A stretch of 33,269 nucleotides of DNA, taken from Nitrospirota bacterium. Its GTDB lineage: Bacteria; Nitrospirota; Thermodesulfovibrionia; Thermodesulfovibrionales; JdFR-88. The position numbers and the translations under genes were made by a program. Below, in pieces: positions 4,001 to 31,991 of this stretch. Location of the stretch: the NCBI GenBank assembly GCA_021789555.1, contig JAJYJK010000025.1, positions 1-33,269 of the forward strand. Direction: 5' to 3'. Each line of letters begins with the position of its first letter. Position 1 is the stretch's first letter. A model generated the notes under the pieces. That model searched no databases, was not told the DNA's origin, and was given only the letters and a program-made list of their open reading frames with translations.

Positions 4001-5029
4001 ATGCTTGCCATTGTTGACCAGGTCAAGGAAAAGACCGCAATGCCCTACAGGACTATCTGCGATGCCGTCAGGCTGCCTTATCGGAGTTTCACACGGTGGC
4101 GCATGAGGCGCCAGGAAGATGCGCCTCTGGTGCGCCCGCCCGGCCCCGCCAAGATCGAACCCCCTGATTTTGGCAAGATTGAGCAGGATATTGCAAAACT
4201 GTCTCACGGGCATGATCGCACGCAGGGCACTGGCATATTATATGCGCACCACAGGTCCAGCATATCAAGGCGTGATCTGCAGAGGCTGGTGGCAATGGCA
4301 CGGCATGATCTTAACGTGGCGCATCGTCAGAACCTGCGCCGTATTCACTGGAATGTGTCTAACGTGGCATGGTCCATGGACCCGAGCGAATACTGGCAGC
4401 GCGACGCAGACGGAGACAAGCCATACCTCAACCATATGCAGGACCTCGCCTCGCGTTACAAGTTCAATCCCATGGCTGGAGACATCCCCACCGGCGAGGA
4501 AATATCCGGCTGGCTAACGACGACCTTCAACGATTTCGGGGCGCCGCTGCTTCTAAAACGCGACAATGGCGGCAACCTCAACCATAAGGCAGTCAATGAA
4601 GTGCTCGAAGAATATTACGTCATGCCGCTCAACAGCCCGGTCCATTACCCGCCTTACAATGGCGCCATCGAAGAGGCGCAGACCGAGCTGAAAAACGGAC
4701 TTGCTTCAAAACTCATGTATCAACCCTGCTGCCCACGCGAACACTTTGAGGCGTATGCCTCGACTGTCGAACATGATCTCAATCACCGGCCGCGTCCATG
4801 CTTAAAAGGGAAAAATTCGTGCCAGGTGTACTTTGCGGGTAAAAGGACTTTTTCCAAACGGGAAAGGAGGGATGCCTATGCATGGATAACAGACTTGCAG
4901 AGTGATATTCTGAATAGTGAGAGGGTTCAGCCACAGGCAGCCTGGCGCATCGCCGTCGAGGCCTGGCTGAGCATGAAAGGCTTTATCACCGTGACCATCA
5001 ACGGGAAAGTGTTACCCAGTTTTTCATAA
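4001..5029 (+). CDS. Integrase-core (DD35E) transposase
   Basis: A 342-residue transposase, probably intact. AAGGAGG at 3980-3986 lies 14 bases before ATG 4001. The N-terminal 45 residues look like a helical DNA-binding region. The catalytic core shows Asp127 in VAWSMDPSEYW, Asp188 in LLLKRDNGGNLNHKAVNEVL, and Glu224 in YNGAIEEAQTELK; the 35-residue spacing between the second Asp and the Glu is exactly DD35E. This is the rve-type retroviral-integrase fold used by IS3/IS481-like elements. The C terminus (about 270-342) is outside the core. It presumably acts with the HTH protein encoded just upstream. The precise IS family was not determined. Confidence 0.75.
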   Translation: MLAIVDQVKEKTAMPYRTICDAVRLPYRSFTRWRMRRQEDAPLVRPPGPAKIEPPDFGKIEQDIAKLSHGHDRTQGTGILYAHHRSSISRRDLQRLVAMARHDLNVAHRQNLRRIHWNVSNVAWSMDPSEYWQRDADGDKPYLNHMQDLASRYKFNPMAGDIPTGEEISGWLTTTFNDFGAPLLLKRDNGGNLNHKAVNEVLEEYYVMPLNSPVHYPPYNGAIEEAQTELKNGLASKLMYQPCCPREHFEAYASTVEHDLNHRPRPCLKGKNSCQVYFAGKRTFSKRERRDAYAWITDLQSDILNSERVQPQAAWRIAVEAWLSMKGFITVTINGKVLPSFS

Positions 5030-5055
5030 ATTTGGTGCCATAAACTCATGGCGCG

Positions 5056-6051
5056 CACACCTTTAATCTGTTTGCTGGTCCTTTCCGCGAACCGGTCAAG
5101 AAAGAAACGGCTAAGCAGAGGGATGTCATCCTTCCTGTCCCGCAAGGGCGGCAACTGGATTACAATTGGCGCGAGTCGGTAATAGAGGTCTTTCCTGAAG
5201 GTGCCTTTCCGGACCTCTTTTTCAAGGTCCTTGTTGGTTGCGGCTATTATTCGGCAATTGGCCTTAAGCATGCGTTGTGCGCCAAGAGGCCTGTATTCCC
5301 CGTCCTGGAGCACGCGCAGGAAGTGCGATTGAAAGCGTAAGGGCATCTCGCCCATCTCGTCCAGAAGGATGGTGCCGCCTGAAGCGGCCTCGAACAACCC
5401 CTTTTTATCGCTGACCGCCCCTGTAAAGGCCCCTTTTCTATGGCCGAACATTTCCGATTCGATCAGTTCTCCGACAAGCCCTCCGCAGTTGCATACTGTA
5501 AACGGCCCGTCGCCCGCGGGGCTCAGCGAATGCAGCGCTCTGGCTGTTACCTCTTTGCCCGTGCCTGTTTCGCCCATAATCGTGATTACCTTGTAATACG
5601 GGGCTACGCTCTTCATCCGGGAGATGACGTTCAGCATCTCCGGGTTCTTGCCGACAATGCCGGAAAAGGTATACTTTGAGAGCAGTTGCCTTTCAAGTTC
5701 AAAGGTTTCCTTTTTGGCCTCGAAGAAGTCTTCCATCCCCCGCAAGGTATCCTCGAATTTCTCCGGGTTCTCCAGCGAAACAGGAAAATAGGCCGAGGCC
5801 CCCTTGCGCACGGCATTCACGGCGTCTATTTCGCCGGGGCCAAAGACGATTATCTCTATCCGGGGGTCGGCTCGTTTTATCATAGAAAAATCCAGAGTGC
5901 CCTCTTCGATAAGCGCCAGGTCAGGGTTTTTTCCTCTCACGAGTTCCGCCATTCGGCCTTCGGCGGCGATTTCGACCTCGTGACGGGCCAGAAGCGGCTT
6001 CAGTTTTTCTGCGAGTGACGCGGAGCGCACGGAAAATAATATCTTAAGCAT
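5056..6051 (-). pseudogene. Sigma-54-dependent response regulator, truncated by IS insertion
   Basis: About 332 genuine residues of an NtrC-type activator. The N-terminal ~110 residues resemble a receiver domain, but the phospho-acceptor position in PDLALIEEG (residue 49) is Glu instead of Asp. The AAA+ domain is clear: Walker A GETGTGKE (160-167), the sigma-54 contact loop GAFTGA (207-212), Walker B GGTILLDE (225-232) and the block YYRLAPIVIQLPPLRDRKDD. After KQIKGV (residue 332) the frame runs into the insertion sequence for another 42 foreign codons. The end of the AAA+ domain and the Fis-type DNA-binding domain are lost, so it cannot bind its enhancer. No clear RBS precedes the start; AAGGG directly abuts the ATG. 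Confidence 0.85.
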
Positions 6052-15735: not shown

Positions 15736-15850
15736 TGTTACGGCCGGTTAAGATCGGACCCATCTGGTCGTTATAAACGGACCCACCCAGAAGTTGCTTG
15801 TTTTTGAGTTCCTGAAGAGATAATGGCGGTTTAAGGATCCACCGGGCGGG
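15736..15850. repeat. Left terminal repeats of the IS21 element
   Basis: The outer repeat is 15736-15762. Related motifs follow at 15766-15787 (TTATAAACGGACCCACC) and 15826-15849 (GGCGGTTTAAGGATCCACC). They are inverted relative to the three copies at the right end. Multiple transposase-binding sites at each end are a hallmark of the IS21 family. Confidence 0.75.
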
Positions 15851-15934
15851 TTTTTTTTGTGGGATTGTATGGATTGTTTCCGGGGACATGGATATCGTAA
15901 TGAGGGGATTGGGGGGAGCCGAGCCTTACGACGG

Positions 15935-16735
15935 CTATTTCTTTTTTGACTTTCTTGCCTGAGCGTTCAGCTTTTTCGATTCGTGCATCCTCCAGCTTGG
16001 CCCCTGTATGCTGATTATGATGGAGTGATGGACCATGCGGTCTACGATGGCGGTGGTGATGACGGGGTCGCCCAGGTAATCGCCGAGCTCGGCAAACCCG
16101 ATGTTCGAGGTAAGGATTGTAGAGCCCTTGCAGTAGCGGCCGTCTACGACCTTGAAGAACAAGGAGGCGTTCCTGGCGTCCTGCTGCTCGAGCCTGTCGA
16201 ACCCCACTTCATCGATGAGGAGGATATCGGGCGAGGTGTATTGCCTGAGTTTTCTGTGCAAGCTGTCGTCGGCCCGGCTGGCCATAAGTTCCGTAAGCAT
16301 GGCGGCCGCCGTGGTATAGCGGCACCGGTAGAGCTGCCTACAGCCAATGATAAGCAATGCCTTTGCGATGTGGCTTTTCCCCGTGCCCGAATCTCCGGCG
16401 AGGATGAGCCCCTGTTTGCGCCCCACGAAGTCCAGTTTGGCAAGCTCCATGATCTGGGCCTTATCAAGGCCAGTCTGGAATTCGAAATCGAAATCCGAAA
16501 GGAGCTTGCGCTCGGGAAGCTTTGAATCTCTTATCCTCCGCTCTATCCGCCTTTCTATAAGCGCGTTTGCCTCTATGGCAAGCAGCCGCTCAAGGAGTTC
16601 CGTTGGAGCCATCGCCTTCTGAGCCGCCTCCGAAAGCTCCCTCTCCAAGGCCTTCTGTATCGCGGCAAGCTTCAGAAGATTCAGGTGCTCCCTGATTTTT
16701 TCCAGAGTCTTTTCTTTCACTGCCTGGTTTTTCAT
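15935..16735 (-). CDS. istB: IS21 helper ATPase IstB
   Basis: A 266-residue AAA+ ATPase that works with IstA in strand transfer and target selection. ATG 16735 is chosen because AGGAGGAGGAAG lies immediately upstream; longer in-frame starts have no RBS. The N-terminal helical domain (LLKLAAIQKALERELSEAAQ) is typical. Walker A GDSGTGKSH is at about 114-122, Walker B ILLIDEVGF at about 171-179, and the sensor ILTSNIGFAELGDYLGDP follows. Length matches the family (about 250 residues). The gene overlaps the 3' end of istA by 146 bases, a strong sign of translational coupling. The C terminus ends in a short basic tail. Confidence 0.92.
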   Translation of the reverse strand: MKNQAVKEKTLEKIREHLNLLKLAAIQKALERELSEAAQKAMAPTELLERLLAIEANALIERRIERRIRDSKLPERKLLSDFDFEFQTGLDKAQIMELAKLDFVGRKQGLILAGDSGTGKSHIAKALLIIGCRQLYRCRYTTAAAMLTELMASRADDSLHRKLRQYTSPDILLIDEVGFDRLEQQDARNASLFFKVVDGRYCKGSTILTSNIGFAELGDYLGDPVITTAIVDRMVHHSIIISIQGPSWRMHESKKLNAQARKSKKK

Positions 16736-18248
16736 CTTCCTCCTCCTGTGTAAGCAGGGTGCTGTATTCGGCAAGCGGCCACTGCGTAATCCTGGGCAGG
16801 GTCCTCTCCAGTAGCCGCCCGGCGCGCTCATTGCGCACGGACTCCAGCGTGCGCGGGACCGCTTTGGCCCGCAGTATCCGCTCTATCGCTTTCCCCTCGA
16901 AGGCCTGATACCTAAGGGCGTGCTCCAGGGCTTTGTGGATATCTCCGCTTTGGTAGTGCTCTTTCATGCGCAGGATATACCTGGCGTGGGCCCCGCAGTT
17001 TCTTGGATGTCTGCCGGTAAGACCCGTCAGGAACTCCTCTGCGGCTTCCCCCAACTCCAAAAAGGCCTCCCTTACCGGCTCAAGGCCATATCGTGAGATT
17101 TTCGTCTTGAAGTGCGCGGGGTCTTCAACCCGTTTGCCCGCTCCCGCCGGCTGCCTTTCGTGTACGGCTATGCGCTCAAGCTCCGGAGTGTAGACCATGA
17201 TCTCATGCTCCGTGGCCTTTATGCTCAGAATGTCTGCGATATGGTCTGAGGGCACGGAGTACCTGTTTGTCTCAAACTCGACAAACCCCCCTGCGTCGCA
17301 GACCTTCAAGGCGACCTCCGCCGTGTCATAAGGATGAAGCGGCAGGGGCTGAAGCGCCGCCTGTTCCCGCTCCATAAACAGCTCTATCGGGGGCCGCTTC
17401 GTAGTGTCGTGGACGTGAAGGTCGGATTTTTCCCTGAGCCACCATCTGGCCGTCGCCCTCAGATCCTCAATATCCTGAAAATCCCTGCCGCCAAGCAGGT
17501 TAGACTCAACATATTTAAAGGGCGACTCGATTTTACCCTTTGTTTGGGCGCGCCCTGGGCGGCACGCCACGGGTTTACAGTTATAGTACGTGATGAAGGC
17601 CGTGAAGGCGGGGTTGAAGACGGGGCGCCCGCACTCCCATCTGAGGACAACGGTTTTTTCATTGTCGTAGAGGCACTCTATTGGCACCCCGCCATAGTAC
17701 TCGAAGGCGTCCTGATGCCGGCGGATGAGCGTGTAGAAGTCATGGCGTGGCACAAAGTCGATATATTGTCGGCGTGAGTAGCCCAGGATATAGGAGAAGC
17801 ACTGCACCATTTTTTTGCCCGTGCGGGTAAAGGCAATCGTGTACGGGCTCCAATCCATCTGCCCTTGGCGAGCCGGCCCTGTTTCAAACCGTATCACCGG
17901 CTCTTTCTTGGGCTTGCGCAGTTTCCTTAGCTTCTCCTTGAGGATGCTGCGGCCACCTGTATATCCAGCCTCCTTCAGCTCTTCATAGATGCGCACGCCG
18001 GTGATGTCCGGATATTTTTCAAGCAGGTTTCTTATCATCGGCAGGAAGGGATCGAGCTTGCTGACCCGCTTGAGCTTCTTTGTAAGCGCCTCGTGGCCTT
18101 TGTCCCTTTGGTTTTCATGTTCGCGGAGGATTCTCCGTATCGCGTTTCGGGAGGTGTGGAAGTGGCGGCAGAGGGCGTGTATCGACCACCCCTCATTGTG
18201 CATGATGATCACGGCATGTTCAAACTCCTGGCGGCTGCCAATCAGCAT
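16590..18248 (-). CDS. istA: IS21 transposase IstA
   Basis: A 552-residue DDE transposase. ATG 18248 overlaps the stop of the ParB-like gene as ATGCTGA, which favours this start over ATG 18257. An N-terminal HTH is visible (WSIHALCRHFHTSRNAIRRI). The catalytic residues are Asp132 (GQMDWSPY), Asp195 (CLYDNEKTVVL) and Glu241 (TKGKIESPFKYVE), spaced as in IS21. The C-terminal half has the usual IstA beta region (FVEFETNRYSVP) and an acidic, Gly-rich tail that overlaps istB. It catalyses cut-and-paste movement of the element with IstB. It appears complete. Confidence 0.92.
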   Translation of the reverse strand: MLIGSRQEFEHAVIIMHNEGWSIHALCRHFHTSRNAIRRILREHENQRDKGHEALTKKLKRVSKLDPFLPMIRNLLEKYPDITGVRIYEELKEAGYTGGRSILKEKLRKLRKPKKEPVIRFETGPARQGQMDWSPYTIAFTRTGKKMVQCFSYILGYSRRQYIDFVPRHDFYTLIRRHQDAFEYYGGVPIECLYDNEKTVVLRWECGRPVFNPAFTAFITYYNCKPVACRPGRAQTKGKIESPFKYVESNLLGGRDFQDIEDLRATARWWLREKSDLHVHDTTKRPPIELFMEREQAALQPLPLHPYDTAEVALKVCDAGGFVEFETNRYSVPSDHIADILSIKATEHEIMVYTPELERIAVHERQPAGAGKRVEDPAHFKTKISRYGLEPVREAFLELGEAAEEFLTGLTGRHPRNCGAHARYILRMKEHYQSGDIHKALEHALRYQAFEGKAIERILRAKAVPRTLESVRNERAGRLLERTLPRITQWPLAEYSTLLTQEEEDEKPGSERKDSGKNQGAPESSEACRDTEGLGEGAFGGGSEGDGSNGTP

Positions 18249-19108
18249 TGGGCACATTTGCTTTGTCCGCACGCAAGCCTCAGTGTCTGCGCCGCACGCT
18301 CAGCTGAGGCAAGAGACGCCGATATGAGGCCTGAAAGCCTTTCGGCTTCCCCAGGGGTAATTGCAGCCTCCGATACGGCTCTGCAGACACGCTCCATCGA
18401 TATGAGCCTAGCCTCAAGTCCCATGGGCCTCGGCTGTTTCGGCTCCACGATCTCCCATGGACTGGCCAGTATCGTCTGATATTCCCACCTGGGCCGCGAC
18501 AGCAGATGCGAGATGAGCTTTGCAGCCTCACGAGTCGAAAATCTGTGCTTTATAACGGCGGCGGCCGCATCCGGTTGGTTGCCGCGCGGCAACTTCGCCA
18601 ATTCTCTGCCCGTGACTACCGATACCAAGCCCAGCCTGATATCATCCTGGACCGCCTCGCTTAACCGCTCAATCAGTGATATCCGCCGGCTTACCCAGCT
18701 CTTGTGCCGGCCCAGCAGGACCGCAATCTCTGCCTGCATGAGCCGATCCTCGCGGTGAAGGGAACAAAGCACCATCGCCTCTTCCATCTCGTTTATCGAC
18801 CGGCCGGGCTGATTCAGCTGTATGATGGCCGCCTTGCAAACCCGCTCCGCCGCTTCCCATACTTTCGCGGTAAGCGACTCCAGATTGAGCTGGCGGCTGG
18901 CCCTGAGTCTCTTGAATCCGTCTATCGTCTCGTAACCGTCTCCAGTCCTGACGCACACTATCGGGGTCAGCTGCCCGTACTTCCGCATCGACTTCATCAT
19001 GGCGGCGTCCAACCGCGGGCTCACAATCCGCAGCGCCGCGTACTTCTCTCCGATCTTCGCCGCGTCTATCTCTTCTATTGCCGGATTCCCGTTCATTTCA
19101 GCCAGCAT
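18242..19108 (-). CDS. ParB/KorB-like DNA-binding protein carried in the IS21 element
   Basis: A 288-residue protein starting at ATG 19108; a weak GAGG lies 5 bases upstream. The N-terminal part (about 10-85) is a ParB/Srx-like domain: IDAAKIGEKYAALRIVSPRL, MRKYGQLTPIVC and DGFKRLRASRQL. In canonical ParB the last motif is G-E-R-R-x-R-A, the nucleotide-binding arginine patch; here it reads G-F-K-R-L-R-A. An HTH domain follows (MQAEIAVLLGRHKSWVSRRI and a following helix), as in KorB/ParB. Its stop overlaps the istA start by 7 bases and the zinc-ribbon gene ends 44 bases before its start, so it belongs to the transposition operon. A role in end binding, copy control or target choice is possible (inference); no parA is nearby, so plasmid-type partition is unlikely. 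Confidence 0.75.
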   Translation of the reverse strand: MLAEMNGNPAIEEIDAAKIGEKYAALRIVSPRLDAAMMKSMRKYGQLTPIVCVRTGDGYETIDGFKRLRASRQLNLESLTAKVWEAAERVCKAAIIQLNQPGRSINEMEEAMVLCSLHREDRLMQAEIAVLLGRHKSWVSRRISLIERLSEAVQDDIRLGLVSVVTGRELAKLPRGNQPDAAAAVIKHRFSTREAAKLISHLLSRPRWEYQTILASPWEIVEPKQPRPMGLEARLISMERVCRAVSEAAITPGEAERLSGLISASLASAERAAQTLRLACGQSKCAQC

Positions 19109-19152
19109 AACAGCCTCGAAAAGGCAAAAACCAGATAGTCCTCTCTTTGCAA

Positions 19153-19605
19153 TCACGGACCGATTTGCGCCCCGGCGGAAAACCCCTTTGAAATCACGCC
19201 TATCTCCACGATTAGCTCGTCCATCTTTGCAATCAGCCCGTTGCAAACGGGGACGAGTCTGTAACATCCCGGAATTATGGCGTTTTCCGCCTTCAGCGCG
19301 TCCATCTTTGCAATCAGGCGCCTCCGCCGGTTGCGCTCCCGCTGCTCCTGGCGGTTCCGCTCCGCATAGGCAGGGTTCCTCTGCCGGTACCGCCTCCAAT
19401 AATCCGGGTTCCTGCTGCACCACTGCCGCTGGGCCTTCGTCTGAGCCTCCCGGTAATCGCTGTCTTTTGCCCGTTTCTCCTTTTGCCATTGCCTCTTTCG
19501 CGCCCTCTGGCATTCGGGATCCGAACAATACCGTTGATAGAGCACCTTGATTACCGCCGGGTGCGGCAAAAATCTCATCCCGCAGCACGCACAAGTCCTT
19601 TCCAT
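19153..19605 (-). CDS. Small zinc-ribbon, Arg-rich protein, first gene of the IS21 operon
   Basis: A 150-residue protein. ATG 19605 has GGAGGAG about 3 bases upstream; a longer frame exists but lacks an RBS. The N terminus carries two cysteine pairs (ERTCACCGMRF and RYCSDPECQRAR), as in small zinc-binding proteins. The middle is a strongly basic, Arg/Gln-rich helix (about 40-100) with spaced aromatic residues (DYWRRYRQRNPAY). The end carries a repeated LIAKMD motif. No enzyme motif is seen. Placed directly inside the right terminal repeats, it is the promoter-proximal gene of the element's operon; DNA or RNA binding is likely (inference). Confidence 0.65.
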   Translation of the reverse strand: MERTCACCGMRFLPHPAVIKVLYQRYCSDPECQRARKRQWQKEKRAKDSDYREAQTKAQRQWCSRNPDYWRRYRQRNPAYAERNRQEQRERNRRRRLIAKMDALKAENAIIPGCYRLVPVCNGLIAKMDELIVEIGVISKGFSAGAQIGP

Positions 19606-19697
19606 GACTCCTCCGCAATCAGGTCGATAGGCAATCATGAACCATACTTGCGCAGGAAAAAAGATATGCGGTGGGAGAAAGACGTCCTTGGGGATTT

Positions 19698-19798
19698 GCC
19701 GGGTGGGTCTCTAAACCGCCCGGCCTCCGTCAATCAAAGGCCGGTAAATGGGTCCGTAAACCGGCCAGGGGTGGGTCCGTTTTAAACCGGCCGGAACA
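19698..19798. repeat. Right terminal repeats of the IS21 element
   Basis: Three related motifs lie at about 19698-19719 (CGGGTGGGTCTCTAAACCGC), 19743-19765 (ATGGGTCCGTAAACCGGCC) and 19769-19798 (GGTGGGTCCGTTTTAAACCG, then CCGGAACA). The outermost is the inverted partner of 15736-15762. The promoter of the four-gene operon must lie within or next to this block. Confidence 0.75.
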
Positions 19799-20163
19799 AC
19801 AAGGAGCTAAACGGCGGCCAGTGAGGGGATATCAAAGTATAGGGCGCTCCGGGAAAACCCGTCCTGGGGCAAACGAGAAGGCCGCTTTCGGCCGGCAAAG
19901 GCTAAAAACCGCCTCTCATCGTACTAACCCCGTGGAAGACCCCCCAGGTGGTACACTTTTCCACGCCCATAATTGGTACACTTTTACATGCCCATTGACA
20001 AAAGGTCTATTTTGAAATGGAATGTGCATAGTTGACAGAAACTCGCGGGAACATAGGGTGACTTTGAAATGCATAGTTTGCCCTCTAGTCTGCACCGGCG
20101 GGCAGATTATAATTGTGGTGAATACGGGTTGAAAGTAACACCCCGAGAAAATGTTCACCGTTC
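19799..20163. other. Non-coding stretch between IS21 element and the five-gene operon
   Basis: About 365 bases without a credible gene. It holds the solitary end of a second IS21-type element (19950-20000) and a small hairpin GGCCG-CTTT-CGGCC (19880-19893). The sequence from 19925 (CCCGTGGAAGACCCCCCAGG) into the end repeats looks like the region behind an istB gene, so a whole second IS21 element may once have been here. I see no terminator for the minus-strand operon that ends at 20164. Confidence 0.5.
19950..20000. repeat. Solitary end of a second, different IS21-family element
   Basis: Two direct copies of GGTACACTTTT-x-CA-x-GCCCAT lie at 19950-19970 and 19975-19995, followed by TGACA ending at 20000. 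Read inward on the minus strand this begins TGTCAATGGGCATGTAAAAG, the typical TG...CA-type end with multiple subrepeats of IS21 relatives (family knowledge). It does not match the repeats of the neighbouring element, and no genes of its own remain. Confidence 0.6.
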
Positions 20164-28414: not shown

Positions 28415-29254
28415 TTATTTTCCGTGCAGCATATCCATCCATCTGATCGCCTCGGCATCGCTGATCTTACCCAAATATATCTGGGTTGTCTTCAGGTCCT
28501 GATGCCTCAGGATGACCTTGGAAATGATCTCCAGAGGCACCCCGTTACGGCTGGCATACGTGGCGGAATGCCGGCGCAAGTCGTGCGGCGTTAGTTTGAC
28601 ATTTACCTTTCCCCCCAGCCGGCTTACGATATTTCTCACGGCCGTGTAGCAAAGTGGGAAAATCCTGTCCCCGGGAGAAAGCTGTTTGCTTTGGACGTAT
28701 TCAGCGAGCCTAGTGGCAATGTGCTCCGGCATGAAGGCGACCTCGGCATCCCGGCCGGACTTTGGCTCCTCTATTATGATCTTTCTGCCGGAGATATCAG
28801 AAGCCCTGAGGTTCAGGACCTCTCCGATTCGCAAACCGCAGCGCGCCTGAAGCTCCAGGATAAGCCGGTCCCTGACAGAACGTGAATTGAAGATAAGCTC
28901 ATCCACTGTTTCCTTGTCCAGTATCTTTCGCGGGCGGTGACAGACGTTTCTATACGTCTTGGACAGCAAGGTGCCATCGCATGGGTTCTTTATATTCAGG
29001 TCGTTTGCCTCGATGACGTAGTTGAAAAGCGCTTTTATCTGGGCGTAGCGGAGATGACGGGTGGATTTGTTGAGCGATTCAGTGCACTCCTCAAGGAAAT
29101 TGCTGATATCATCCGCTGAAACAGACAGAATGTCATGCTTGGCAAACCTTTTCTCGAACTTGTCCAGAAATTTTCCGTAACTCTTAAGGGTACTTTTCTT
29201 TACGGTGCTCTTTTGATGGTTCTTGAAGAGCTCTATGGCTTTTTGAATGGTCAT
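28415..29254 (-). CDS. Tyrosine recombinase / phage-type integrase
   Basis: A 279-residue site-specific recombinase. ATG 29254 has GGAAGGAGAT about 5 bases upstream. The N-terminal ~105 residues form the SAM-like core-binding domain (TLKSYGKFLDKFEKRF). The catalytic residues are all visible: Arg142 (CGLRIGEVLNL), Lys165 (EEPKSGRDAEV), His234 and Arg237 (LTPHDLRRHSA), His261 (LRHQDLKTTQIYLG) and the nucleophile Tyr270. The protein looks complete. It is transcribed away from the conjugation genes that start 243 bases to the right, as is common at the end of integrative elements. A XerC/D-like housekeeping role is possible, but the context favours element integration and excision. Confidence 0.88.
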   Translation of the reverse strand: MTIQKAIELFKNHQKSTVKKSTLKSYGKFLDKFEKRFAKHDILSVSADDISNFLEECTESLNKSTRHLRYAQIKALFNYVIEANDLNIKNPCDGTLLSKTYRNVCHRPRKILDKETVDELIFNSRSVRDRLILELQARCGLRIGEVLNLRASDISGRKIIIEEPKSGRDAEVAFMPEHIATRLAEYVQSKQLSPGDRIFPLCYTAVRNIVSRLGGKVNVKLTPHDLRRHSATYASRNGVPLEIISKVILRHQDLKTTQIYLGKISDAEAIRWMDMLHGK

Positions 29255-29496
29255 TTGGAATCTCCTTCCATGATTGGTAGCTCTCGGGGTCTGCTTAATA
29301 TGATTTTATGGCCTCCAGAATTGGAGATGGTTTCCATTCAAGAGCATCTGAGGTTCAGCTTTCGATTTGGCGGAGTCCGAACTCGGCTTGGCCGTCAAAA
29401 GTGTTTTTTTTCGAAAGAATTCTTGCCCCTTGCCTCGACCTAAAAGCGACCTAGAACCAATGAATCTAAAGTTGCCCCCGTCCTATATCACTATAG

Positions 29497-29925
29497 ATGG
29501 ATATAAAAAGGGTTTTTATTGCCTTGATCCTCATTTTTTCATCCGCCGCCCCGGCCTTTGCCTTCTGCTTCGAGGCCGCCGGGGCGGAGTACGACATATC
29601 CCCTCGCCTCCTCTGGTCGATCGCTAAGGTCGAGTCCGATTTCACCCCTCAGGCGGTCAACTGGAACCAAAACGGCACTTACGATTACGGCCTCATGCAG
29701 ATAAACTCCGGCTGGGCCCAGAGGCTCGGCATGGGCGTCTGGCGGTCCCTCGGAGACCCTTGCACAAACATCAAGACCGGTGCCTGGATACTGGCCAAAT
29801 GCGTTCAGAGGTACGGCTACACATGGGAGGCGGTGGGCTGCTACAACGCCTCGAATAATGAAAAAAGAGAGAGGTACGCAAGGAGGATCTATGCGGTTTT
29901 TAAAAAATATTTCAGGCGACGCTGA
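29497..29925 (+). CDS. Lytic transglycosylase of the conjugation locus (VirB1/IagB-like)
   Basis: A 142-residue exported enzyme that cuts peptidoglycan to let the transfer apparatus pass. A signal peptide is visible (RVFIALILIFSSAAPAFAFC, cleavage after about residue 22). The SLT fold shows its marker motifs: catalytic Glu46 in LLWSIAKVESDF, the block YDYGLMQINSGWAQ, GAWILAKCVQRYGYTWEAVGC, YNAS and a closing RRIYAVFKKY. Two Cys pairs could form disulfides. No good RBS precedes ATG 29497. The gene overlaps the next one by 35 bases and opens the four-gene transfer operon. Confidence 0.85.
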   Translation: MDIKRVFIALILIFSSAAPAFAFCFEAAGAEYDISPRLLWSIAKVESDFTPQAVNWNQNGTYDYGLMQINSGWAQRLGMGVWRSLGDPCTNIKTGAWILAKCVQRYGYTWEAVGCYNASNNEKRERYARRIYAVFKKYFRRR

Positions 29926-30634
29926 CCTCCGGTCCGTCGCTGACAAGTACGAGATCCCCTGCGACGAGGCGAAGGCGGCCATCGAGAGGTCCATATCCAG
30001 TACGCTCTCGGGCATCTTTCGCTCTGATGTGGAGTGCCTTCTGACCGGCGACGGATGCGAAATCTACGTGTTCCGGGAAAACGGGGTCGAAAGGCTGCCC
30101 GTGGAGAGGCTCAAAAAGAACATCCTGCGGGCGATCAAGTACGGCATCGTCTCCGCCCTTCAAGAGGAGGCTACGGCCCGCGGTTATGAAAAACTCCGAT
30201 ACCTGGCGGGCGGGATCCTCGGCGGGCACGTCGCCGTGGTGTTCGAGGAGCGCATATTCGTCGAGTTGGATGGCAGCGCCGGCAGGCTCGTGGTCGGCGT
30301 ATGTGAAAAAGAGCACCAGACGCCCAAGGAAAGGGGCCTTTACCGGACCGGGGAATACCTTAACTTCTACGTATCAAGCGTGACGTCATCATCAAACGGC
30401 CGCGTCCCGGTCTTGAAAGTCTCCCTGAGCAGGACGTCGATGAGCCTCACGGAGGGTCTTCTCCGGAGGGAACTTTCGGAAAAGCTCCTGGCCATAAGGG
30501 TCAGATGCGTGAAACGGGTCGCCGGAGTCTTCAGCCTTGTGGAGGCGGAGGGCAGGATCCCCGGGGAGTGCATAAAGCCGGTCTCTGATGAGCTGAAGGA
30601 AAGGATAATCGTCCATTTTGCCCGGAGGAGATAA
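29891..30634 (+). CDS. NusA-like protein (N-terminal domain, S1, shortened KH region)
   Basis: A 247-residue protein; ATG 29891 has AGGAGG at 29881-29886, inside the end of the transglycosylase gene. The order of motifs follows NusA: a helical N-terminal domain (ADKYEIPCDEAKAAIERSIS, then RAIKYGIVSALQEEA); an S1-like barrel (GGILGGHVAVVFEERIFVEL ... GLYRTGEYLNFYVSSVTSSS); then VLKVSLSRTSMSLTEGLL, which corresponds to the NusA L-S-R-T-x-x-x-L-L entry into KH1; and IRVRCVKRVAG with PVSDELKERIIV. The G-x-x-G RNA-binding loop of KH1, KH2 and any C-terminal repeats are missing (NusA has about 350-500 residues). An elongation or antitermination factor for the transfer operon is the obvious hypothesis. 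Similarity is judged by eye. Confidence 0.6.
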   Translation: MRFLKNISGDADLRSVADKYEIPCDEAKAAIERSISSTLSGIFRSDVECLLTGDGCEIYVFRENGVERLPVERLKKNILRAIKYGIVSALQEEATARGYEKLRYLAGGILGGHVAVVFEERIFVELDGSAGRLVVGVCEKEHQTPKERGLYRTGEYLNFYVSSVTSSSNGRVPVLKVSLSRTSMSLTEGLLRRELSEKLLAIRVRCVKRVAGVFSLVEAEGRIPGECIKPVSDELKERIIVHFARRR

Positions 30635-31991
30635 GGAGAGCCAGCTCATACTCGGCCGGGGCCAGAAACTCGCCGATCCCACCCGCAACATCCGGATAGC
30701 CATCCCGGACGCTCACCGGAACGGCCACCTCTGGTGCTTCGGGACCACCCGCGTGGGCAAGACCCGCGTCATAGAGAACATGGCCGAGCAGGACATAAGA
30801 AAGGGCCACAGCGTGGTCCTCATAGACCCCAAGGGGGACGTGGAGCTTTTCTCCAAGATAGTCCAGGCGGCCTTTGAGGAAGGCAGGCAGGAGGAGCTTA
30901 TGCTTGTCACGCCGGTATTTCCGGCCTACAGCGTCATCATAGACCCTCTGGCCTATTATTTCATGCCCGAGGAGCTGGTGGGGCACATAGTCTCCGGCGT
31001 GGAGGTCGGCAAGGAGAAGTTTTTTTATAATGTGGCCTATGAGGTAAGCCTCGTCGTAGTCCAGGGTCTCATCCTCCTGGCCAAAAACGAGGGAAAACCT
31101 CCCCTTTTTAACCTGAACGACGTCAAAAACCGGATTTCCCATACCGATCTCGAAAACCTCAAAGCCGAAATCGACTCGATAGATTCCAATGAGGCCAGGC
31201 AGCTTTCCTCGGATATGCAAAAGATTCTCGACTCCCCACAGGACTACTACGGAAAGGTCTCCTCCTCCCTGCGCGTGGCCCTCATGGAGCTTACATCCGG
31301 CAACATCGGGAAGATCATCGGCCGCGCCGACGAAAACAGGTTTTTAAAACGGCTGGAGGAGGGAAAACGGGTGATAATGATCGTCCAGCTTGCCTCTCTC
31401 ATCACCAGGAGGGCCGCCTACACCCTGGGAAAGGTGGTCATCTCGATGATACAGAGCTTCGTGGGCAGGGTGTTCGCCTCCGGCCGAAAGGTCACGCCGC
31501 CGCTTTGCCTCTACATAGACGAGGCCCAGAACGTCCTTTACTACGGCATAGACGACCTCTTCGCCAAGGCCGGCGGGGCGGGCGTGTGGGCACATGGGTT
31601 TTCCCAGTCCGTGAGTCAGCTTTACGCGGCCCTGGGCGAGGACTACGCAAACGTGATACTGGACAACACGAACACGAAGCTCTTCATGAGGGTCCCGGAC
31701 GCGAAGACCGCCCAATACGTGGCTGACCACTTCGGGGAAAAGGCGAAGTACGCGCCCATACTGAGCGTGGGCGGCGGCATGACCGTGAGGCAGATGGAAG
31801 AGCCGGTGCTAAAGCCACAGGACGTGCTCAATCTTCCCGCGAGAAAATTCTACATGATGGGATACTCCGGCGCCTTTGTCGGAAAGACCGAGGACGTCTC
31901 GAACCCATATGTTCACATCAAGCTTCCAAACATAAGCGCCGAGGAAGGGGCGATGGAAGCCAATGGTCCCCCGAATGGCGGGGCGGACTGA
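30618..31991 (+). CDS. Conjugative coupling ATPase, TraD/VirD4-like
   Basis: A 457-residue ATPase that links the relaxosome to the secretion channel. Walker A GTTRVGKT is at 42-49, DPKGDVEL at about 69, Walker B LCLYIDEAQNVLYYG at about 293-307, then AGGAGVWAHGFSQSVSQLYA and NTNTKLFMRVPDAKTAQYVA, all typical of SXT/R27-type TraD proteins. Unlike most coupling proteins it has no N-terminal membrane helices. The annotated start is TTG 30618, which overlaps the NusA-like gene by 17 bases and has only a distant RBS. A better RBS (AAGGAG, 30633-30638) points to about 30648, where the codon is ATA. The stop overlaps the start of the HD gene by one base. Confidence 0.85.
   Translation: MPGGDKESQLILGRGQKLADPTRNIRIAIPDAHRNGHLWCFGTTRVGKTRVIENMAEQDIRKGHSVVLIDPKGDVELFSKIVQAAFEEGRQEELMLVTPVFPAYSVIIDPLAYYFMPEELVGHIVSGVEVGKEKFFYNVAYEVSLVVVQGLILLAKNEGKPPLFNLNDVKNRISHTDLENLKAEIDSIDSNEARQLSSDMQKILDSPQDYYGKVSSSLRVALMELTSGNIGKIIGRADENRFLKRLEEGKRVIMIVQLASLITRRAAYTLGKVVISMIQSFVGRVFASGRKVTPPLCLYIDEAQNVLYYGIDDLFAKAGGAGVWAHGFSQSVSQLYAALGEDYANVILDNTNTKLFMRVPDAKTAQYVADHFGEKAKYAPILSVGGGMTVRQMEEPVLKPQDVLNLPARKFYMMGYSGAFVGKTEDVSNPYVHIKLPNISAEEGAMEANGPPNGGAD

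Follow-up and report, generated by a model that had tools for sequence, protein, structure and literature searches.

The element and its ends

The window analysed here is a stretch of 33,269 nucleotides from a Nitrospirota bacterium (contig JAJYJK010000025.1). Between positions 15736 and 19798 it carries an IS21-family transposable element with four co-directional genes on the minus strand, which encode, in the order of reading, a zinc-ribbon protein (termed ZnR in the following), a ParB/Noc-like protein, the transposase IstA and its helper ATPase IstB. The original prediction of four such genes inside terminal inverted repeats was confirmed by gene calls and by comparison of the two ends. The features are listed below by position.

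15736..19798, minus strand: IS21-family element, 4063 bp, terminal TG...CA, four-gene operon; right boundary deduced from a second copy on contig C82
15736..15790, plus strand: left terminal inverted repeat; two sub-repeats, GGACCCATC (15756) and GGACCCACC (15779), are spaced by 23 bp, and GGATCCACC at 15835 is the third
15935..16735, minus strand: IstB, AAA+ helper ATPase; NCBIfam NF038214, 226 bits (cut-off 200); Walker A GDSGTGKS
16590..18248, minus strand: IstA, IS21 transposase; NCBIfam NF033546, 262 bits (cut-off 160); D132, D195 and E241 conserved
18242..19108, minus strand: ParB/Noc-like protein, 288 amino acids; HTH_ParB/KorB domain, GFKRLR in place of GERRxRA, ENxxR absent
19153..19605, minus strand: ZnR, zinc-ribbon protein of 150 amino acids (CX2C-X18-CX4C); matches no Pfam, NCBIfam or PDB family
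19144..19155, minus strand: array copy 3, TGATTGCAAAGA; non-coding, as it starts at the stop codon of ZnR; distance to copy 2, 80 bp
19219..19234, minus strand: array copy 2, GATTGCAAAGATGGAC; 81 bp from copy 1
19300..19315, minus strand: array copy 1, GATTGCAAAGATGGAC; within the ZnR gene
19744..19798, minus strand: right terminal inverted repeat; two sub-repeats, at 19770-19778 and 19747-19755, are spaced by 23 bp, and GAGACCCACC at 19702-19711 is the third

The transposition genes are those of an IS21 element. The residues D132, D195 and E241 of IstA were invariant in the comparison made, and IstB is encoded directly downstream. The sequence ATGCTGA at 18242-18248 is common to the stop of the ParB-like gene and the start of istA, as had been predicted, and the predicted overlap of istA and istB is likewise present, with 146 bp being longer than was implied at first. 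The ends are of the IS21 type as well: they are terminal inverted repeats bounded by TG...CA and contain at least two sub-repeats spaced by 23 bp. Their outer 30 bp (TGTTACGGCCGGTTAA at 15736 versus the inverted partner ending at 19798) agree in 24 positions, compared to a best value of 23 and a mean of 18.3 in 300 dinucleotide shuffles. Sub-repeats of the GGACCCA type are found at offsets 21, 44 and 100 from the left and 21, 44 and 88 from the right end. In IS21, the end sites L1/L2 and R1/R2 are also spaced by 23 bp and are bound by an IstA tetramer (PMC10122671). The proposal that the ParB-like protein marks the element ends could thus not be upheld, as the GGTGGGTCC-type repeats fit the two 23-bp-spaced sites of IstA (PMC10122671) and need no ParB.

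A second right end is present on contig C82 of the same genome, the first 118 bp of which are identical to 19682-19799 and continue into a different flank. The window element has therefore been moved or copied, and its edge lies at 19798 (or 19799). By eye, this second right end adjoins a tyrosine-recombinase-like open reading frame (ORF; L003, 119-400). An empty site was sought in a relative from the genus (G001) and had to be rejected, since the match to the left flank stops 55 bp before the junction and the right flank is absent.

Recurrence of the four-gene order

The same order was detected in other genomes. In a Nitrospirae bacterium of another Nitrospirota family (G090, contig DAIDTZ010000445.1; locus L028), a ZnR-like gene and genes for ParB (64% identity), IstA (72-73%) and IstB (82%) lie within ends of their own, in which the sub-repeats at offsets 22, 45 and 102 have the layout found in the window element. 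Plasmid pHRM2a of Desulforapulum autotrophicum (L032), a member of another phylum, carries ZnR, ParB, istA and istB in this order together with a CHC2 protein; identities to the window proteins amount to 46-47% for ZnR, 28% for ParB, 23% for IstA and 28% for IstB. The pHRM2a element has inverted ends of 50 nucleotides and is flanked by a perfect 6-bp target-site duplication (TSD), TGGAGG. Further instances are G179:C95, which has a ZnR-like gene, ParB and IstA, the latter two 53% and 59% identical to those of pHRM2a, and, as contig fragments, G008, in which one contig end comprises ZnR and the start of a pHRM2a-type ParB and another contig end a pHRM2a-type IstA-IstB pair.

The four-gene order is hence present in two deeply separated IstA lineages and in two phyla, and we are highly confident that the unit is real and transposes as such. 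The original prediction had left open an undescribed kind of IS21 element or a single capture of passenger genes; the recurrence within matched ends in L028 and pHRM2a, with further cases in G179:C95 and G008, speaks for the former. Copies of istAB with end repeats directly at istA, which had been named as the refuting case, were not found, and in the nearest relative with a complete istAB the two additional genes are enclosed by the ends. Locus L029 was considered as such a copy and counts neither way, because its istA, which shares 57% identity with that of the window, is truncated at the start, where a reverse-transcriptase ORF (4800-5819) overlaps it.

ZnR and its triple repeat array

The ZnR start was assigned to the ATG at 19605, which is preceded by GGAG; an alternative start at 19638 giving 161 amino acids is less likely. 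The protein has helices rich in Arg, Lys, Trp and Tyr and two IAKMD repeats in its tail. Relatives of ZnR or of the window ParB were not found in phage and viral collections. The AlphaFold model of ZnR (predicted local distance difference test, pLDDT, of 69, and below 50 in the tail) was too poor for use, and a Foldseek search returned nothing.

Of 20 ZnR genes examined, 15 contain at their 3' end a direct repeat that is present in two or three copies spaced by 62-81 bp, the third copy usually lying past the stop codon. The repeat motif is GATTGCAAAGATGG in genes of the window type and GATACAAGACGAGAT or GTTACAAGATG in others, and L027 has a different motif. With a joint pattern, 40 matches were obtained on the gene strand of 19 loci, none on the other strand and a single one in the reversed control. 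In the 2.85-Mb genome of the window the exact motif is confined to the ZnR array, and an array of the second motif was detected in three of 296 genomes, in all three at a ZnR gene, while the control gave no match.

Copies of the window type encode IAKMD twice. All ten coding copies from five diverged lineages use the codons ATT-GCA-AAG, for which a chance of about 1e-17 was calculated from the codon use of the partner genes if the sites are independent. The invariant codons and the non-coding third copy indicate that the nucleotide sequence is what has been selected; in most ZnR genes the array is conserved as nucleotides. Two other explanations of the array were tried and dropped. As a structured RNA the window segment folds only slightly better than its shuffles (z = -1.6), and as a general genomic or viral motif it yielded five exact matches to viral contigs, all of them lacking a second copy, which is about the rate expected by chance. 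The motif was not found in the sequences flanking the copies in the window, pHRM2a and C82.

The ParB-like protein

The helix-turn-helix domain of the ParB-like protein scores well above the Pfam cut-off (PF17762, 43.0 bits versus 22.6), and about 165 residues are covered by the match to a solved protein of the Spo0J/Noc type. The N-terminal domain stays below the curated cut-offs (PF02195, 23.6 versus 26.3; TIGR00180, 43.3 versus 58.45). An AlphaFold model (pLDDT 42) was too poor for use. GERRxRA and ENxxR are the motifs by which ParB binds cytidine triphosphate (CTP). Both were present in all 16 chromosomal ParBs examined from the order. In the ParBs of the window, L028, pHRM2a and G179, GFKRxR takes the place of the first, and ENxxR is absent from the IS21 ParBs. 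A sliding clamp is therefore unlikely for these proteins, and so is the spreading along DNA that had been proposed for them; judging from the motifs, clamp chemistry has probably been lost. The helix-turn-helix domain suggests that the protein binds DNA site-specifically. In the phylogeny a single clade (100/97 support) unites the ParBs of L028, pHRM2a and the window, with pHRM2a on a long branch.

Occurrence of ZnR in other elements and exchange of the gene

ZnR also accompanies istA and istB in the absence of ParB. Such three-gene elements occur at L027, L056 and L057, in G243, G007 and G075 and on contig C82 of the window's own genome (G000; L062, 3245-6075). The latter comprises 2831 bp with inverted ends of 35 nucleotides, a 6-bp TSD (GGCTTA) and an array of the motif GATACAAGACGAGATA. 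At four further loci, L060, L061, L058 and Caballeronia pSBC1_4 (L073, 5470-5868), a winged-helix-like gene for about 130 amino acids takes the place of ParB. On pSBC1_4, a gene of the TniQ family is located 500 bp beyond istB. In L058 (581-5954; G304:C184), the second gene of a ZnR-type IS21 element is interrupted by a gamma-mobile-trio element (GmtY, GmtZ, GmtX). The trio was examined as a third partner of ZnR and rejected, as the junction shows an insertion into the next gene; in plasmid loci of the trio no ZnR-like gene was found.

Moreover, three Burkholderiales plasmids (L033, L034, L035) encode ZnR with an array of the window-type motif GATTGCAAAGATGG, followed by a serine recombinase and two ParB proteins, one of them of the RepB type. 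Related alphaproteobacterial serine-recombinase operons are without ZnR. ZnR is thus not confined to IS21, and its link to serine recombinases is limited to one clade.

The similarities of ZnR and IstA are discordant. Window and pHRM2a share 47% identity in ZnR but 23% in IstA, and window and L028 share 30% in ZnR (over 57 residues) but 73% in IstA. In G008:C249 (L053, 2407-3189) a ZnR of the window type with 88% nucleotide identity is joined to a different ParB, the switch point being just inside the ParB start. From these comparisons we conclude that ZnR and its array are swapped between elements.

Elsewhere in the window, at 28415-31991, genes for a tyrosine recombinase, a lysozyme-like protein and a coupling-protein-like ATPase were recognized by eye, which suggests a conjugative or integrative element nearby.

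Proposed mechanism and alternative explanations

An IstA tetramer would bind the 23-bp-spaced end repeats and would be activated by IstB, as in IS21 (PMC10122671, PMC11208146). ZnR is a component which accompanies the array whatever the recombinase, and the simplest reading is that it binds to this array and keeps the following genes in check. It might recognize its own array either as DNA or in the mRNA, the array reaching from the 3' part of the ZnR gene into the gap that precedes the next gene; bound there, it would repress the downstream genes ParB, istA and istB, and transposition would be kept low. The ParB-like protein, whose translation is coupled to that of istA, may serve as a site-specific DNA-binding accessory instead of a spreading clamp, be it by operator binding or by recruiting the IstA/IstB complex to DNA as an adaptor. 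These roles of ZnR and ParB are deduced from sequence and are offered tentatively, somewhat below an even chance. To the explanation as a whole, a four-gene IS21 transposon with ZnR as self-regulator and a non-clamp ParB accessory, we give even chances.

Several observations weigh against this explanation. TSDs are absent at the window, L028 and G243 copies, and with poor AlphaFold models there is no support from protein folds. The codon test takes related lineages as independent. The placement of the IS21 ParBs in a single clade is tentative because of the long pHRM2a branch. Furthermore, the ZnR-like genes of L028 and G179:C95 have no internal array, and the architecture can thus do without one.

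Among the alternatives, a role of the extra genes as target selector survives best, although we consider it unlikely. The ParB-like protein, perhaps together with ZnR, would steer IstA/IstB to particular sites like TniQ/TnsD in Tn7-like elements. The gene between ZnR and istA varies (none, ParB or winged-helix-like), as selectors do in the relatives of Tn7, and ParB is co-translated with istA; an accessory target selector has not been reported for IS21 according to a review (PMC10293859). However, no obvious target is common to the flanks of the copies in the window, pHRM2a and C82, few insertions being known.

Still less probable is that ZnR and the array do not take part in transposition and are a separate passenger or a site at which other elements land. 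The gamma-mobile-trio insertion of L058 just downstream of ZnR, the exchange of ZnR between elements and the serine-recombinase operons of Alphaproteobacteria that do without it would all agree with such a passenger. On the other hand, IS21 elements of several lineages have ZnR in the same position, as the gene nearest to one end, and ZnR is kept with its array in the three Burkholderiales loci, where recombinases are 69-73% and ZnRs 43-48% identical.

A working CTP-dependent clamp, which loads at repeats of the element, spreads and confers target immunity or copy-number control, appears improbable. The domain score and the Spo0J/Noc-type match described above are in its favor, but the CTP motifs are replaced or missing in all IS21 ParBs examined while chromosomal ParBs of related genomes keep both, a palindromic parS-like site was not noticed and the element contains no ParA. 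That the assembly joined unrelated genes, or that two nested insertions created an accidental unit, has a negligible probability. Both the window and L028 come from draft genomes, and neither copy has a TSD, but the reading is refuted by the recurrence of the order elsewhere, one case being a complete plasmid on which the element is flanked by a perfect TSD.

With the four-gene transposon as the preferred explanation, the IS21 subgroup of the original prediction stands and its proposals for ParB do not; the array, the three-gene elements and the exchange of ZnR had not been part of it. Beyond the single element, ZnR and its array could constitute an exchangeable control module of mobile DNA, in which a zinc-ribbon family undescribed so far recognizes its own array and serves both the DDE transposition system IstAB and a serine recombinase with ParB/RepB, often near ParB-like proteins, those of IS21 being no longer CTP clamps. 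We put this generalization forward as a possibility, with a chance clearly short of even.

IS21 has been described as the minimal pairing of a transposase with an AAA+ ATPase, and its widespread four-gene form provides a small, testable system for the question how a DDE transposase and its ATPase gain additional control. The array allows a cheap and specific test, being a DNA or RNA motif of nearly fixed spacing that is conserved against codon choice and common to recombinases of different chemistry. In addition, a ParB-fold protein appears to be used here outside of partitioning, probably without the CTP switch.

Comparison with known systems

Reviews and structural papers describe IS21 with two genes (PMC10122671, PMC11208146). 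The window element resembles IS21 and IS5376 in IstA and IstB above the NCBIfam cut-offs, in the TG...CA ends with at least two sub-repeats 23 bp apart and in the overlap of istA and istB. A short TSD, as in IS21, is found with 6 bp at pHRM2a and at the three-gene element of C82, and none was seen at the window copy. The window element differs from the published two-ORF members (PMC10122671, PMC11208146) by the ZnR and ParB-like genes situated between end and istA. The two-ORF trait is a descriptive one, and the element is hence an IS21 variant and not a non-member. Among open-access papers, with subscription journals and ISfinder outside the search, no description of IS21 elements with ParB, zinc-ribbon or passenger genes was found.

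With the ParB/Noc (Spo0J) clamps, the ParB-like protein shares the HTH_ParB domain and the Noc/Spo0J-type match, but its CTP motifs are replaced or absent, and it is carried in a transposon operon without ParA. Tn7-like elements with TniQ/TnsD similarly combine a DDE transposase, an AAA+ regulator and a variable accessory gene; in contrast, no TniQ/TnsD homolog was found among the four window proteins by Pfam search, and there is no evidence of targeting. The serine recombinase-ParB-RepB operons of Burkholderiales begin with a homologous ZnR, have the same GATTGCAAAGATGG array and include ParB-like partners, but they use a serine recombinase instead of the DDE system IstAB, and their ParBs belong to other clades. 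The three-gene elements (C82, G243, G007, G075) likewise start with ZnR and carry the triple array, with inverted ends in C82 and G243 and a 6-bp TSD in C82; they differ by the lack of ParB and by an array of GATACAAGACGAGATA or a close variant.

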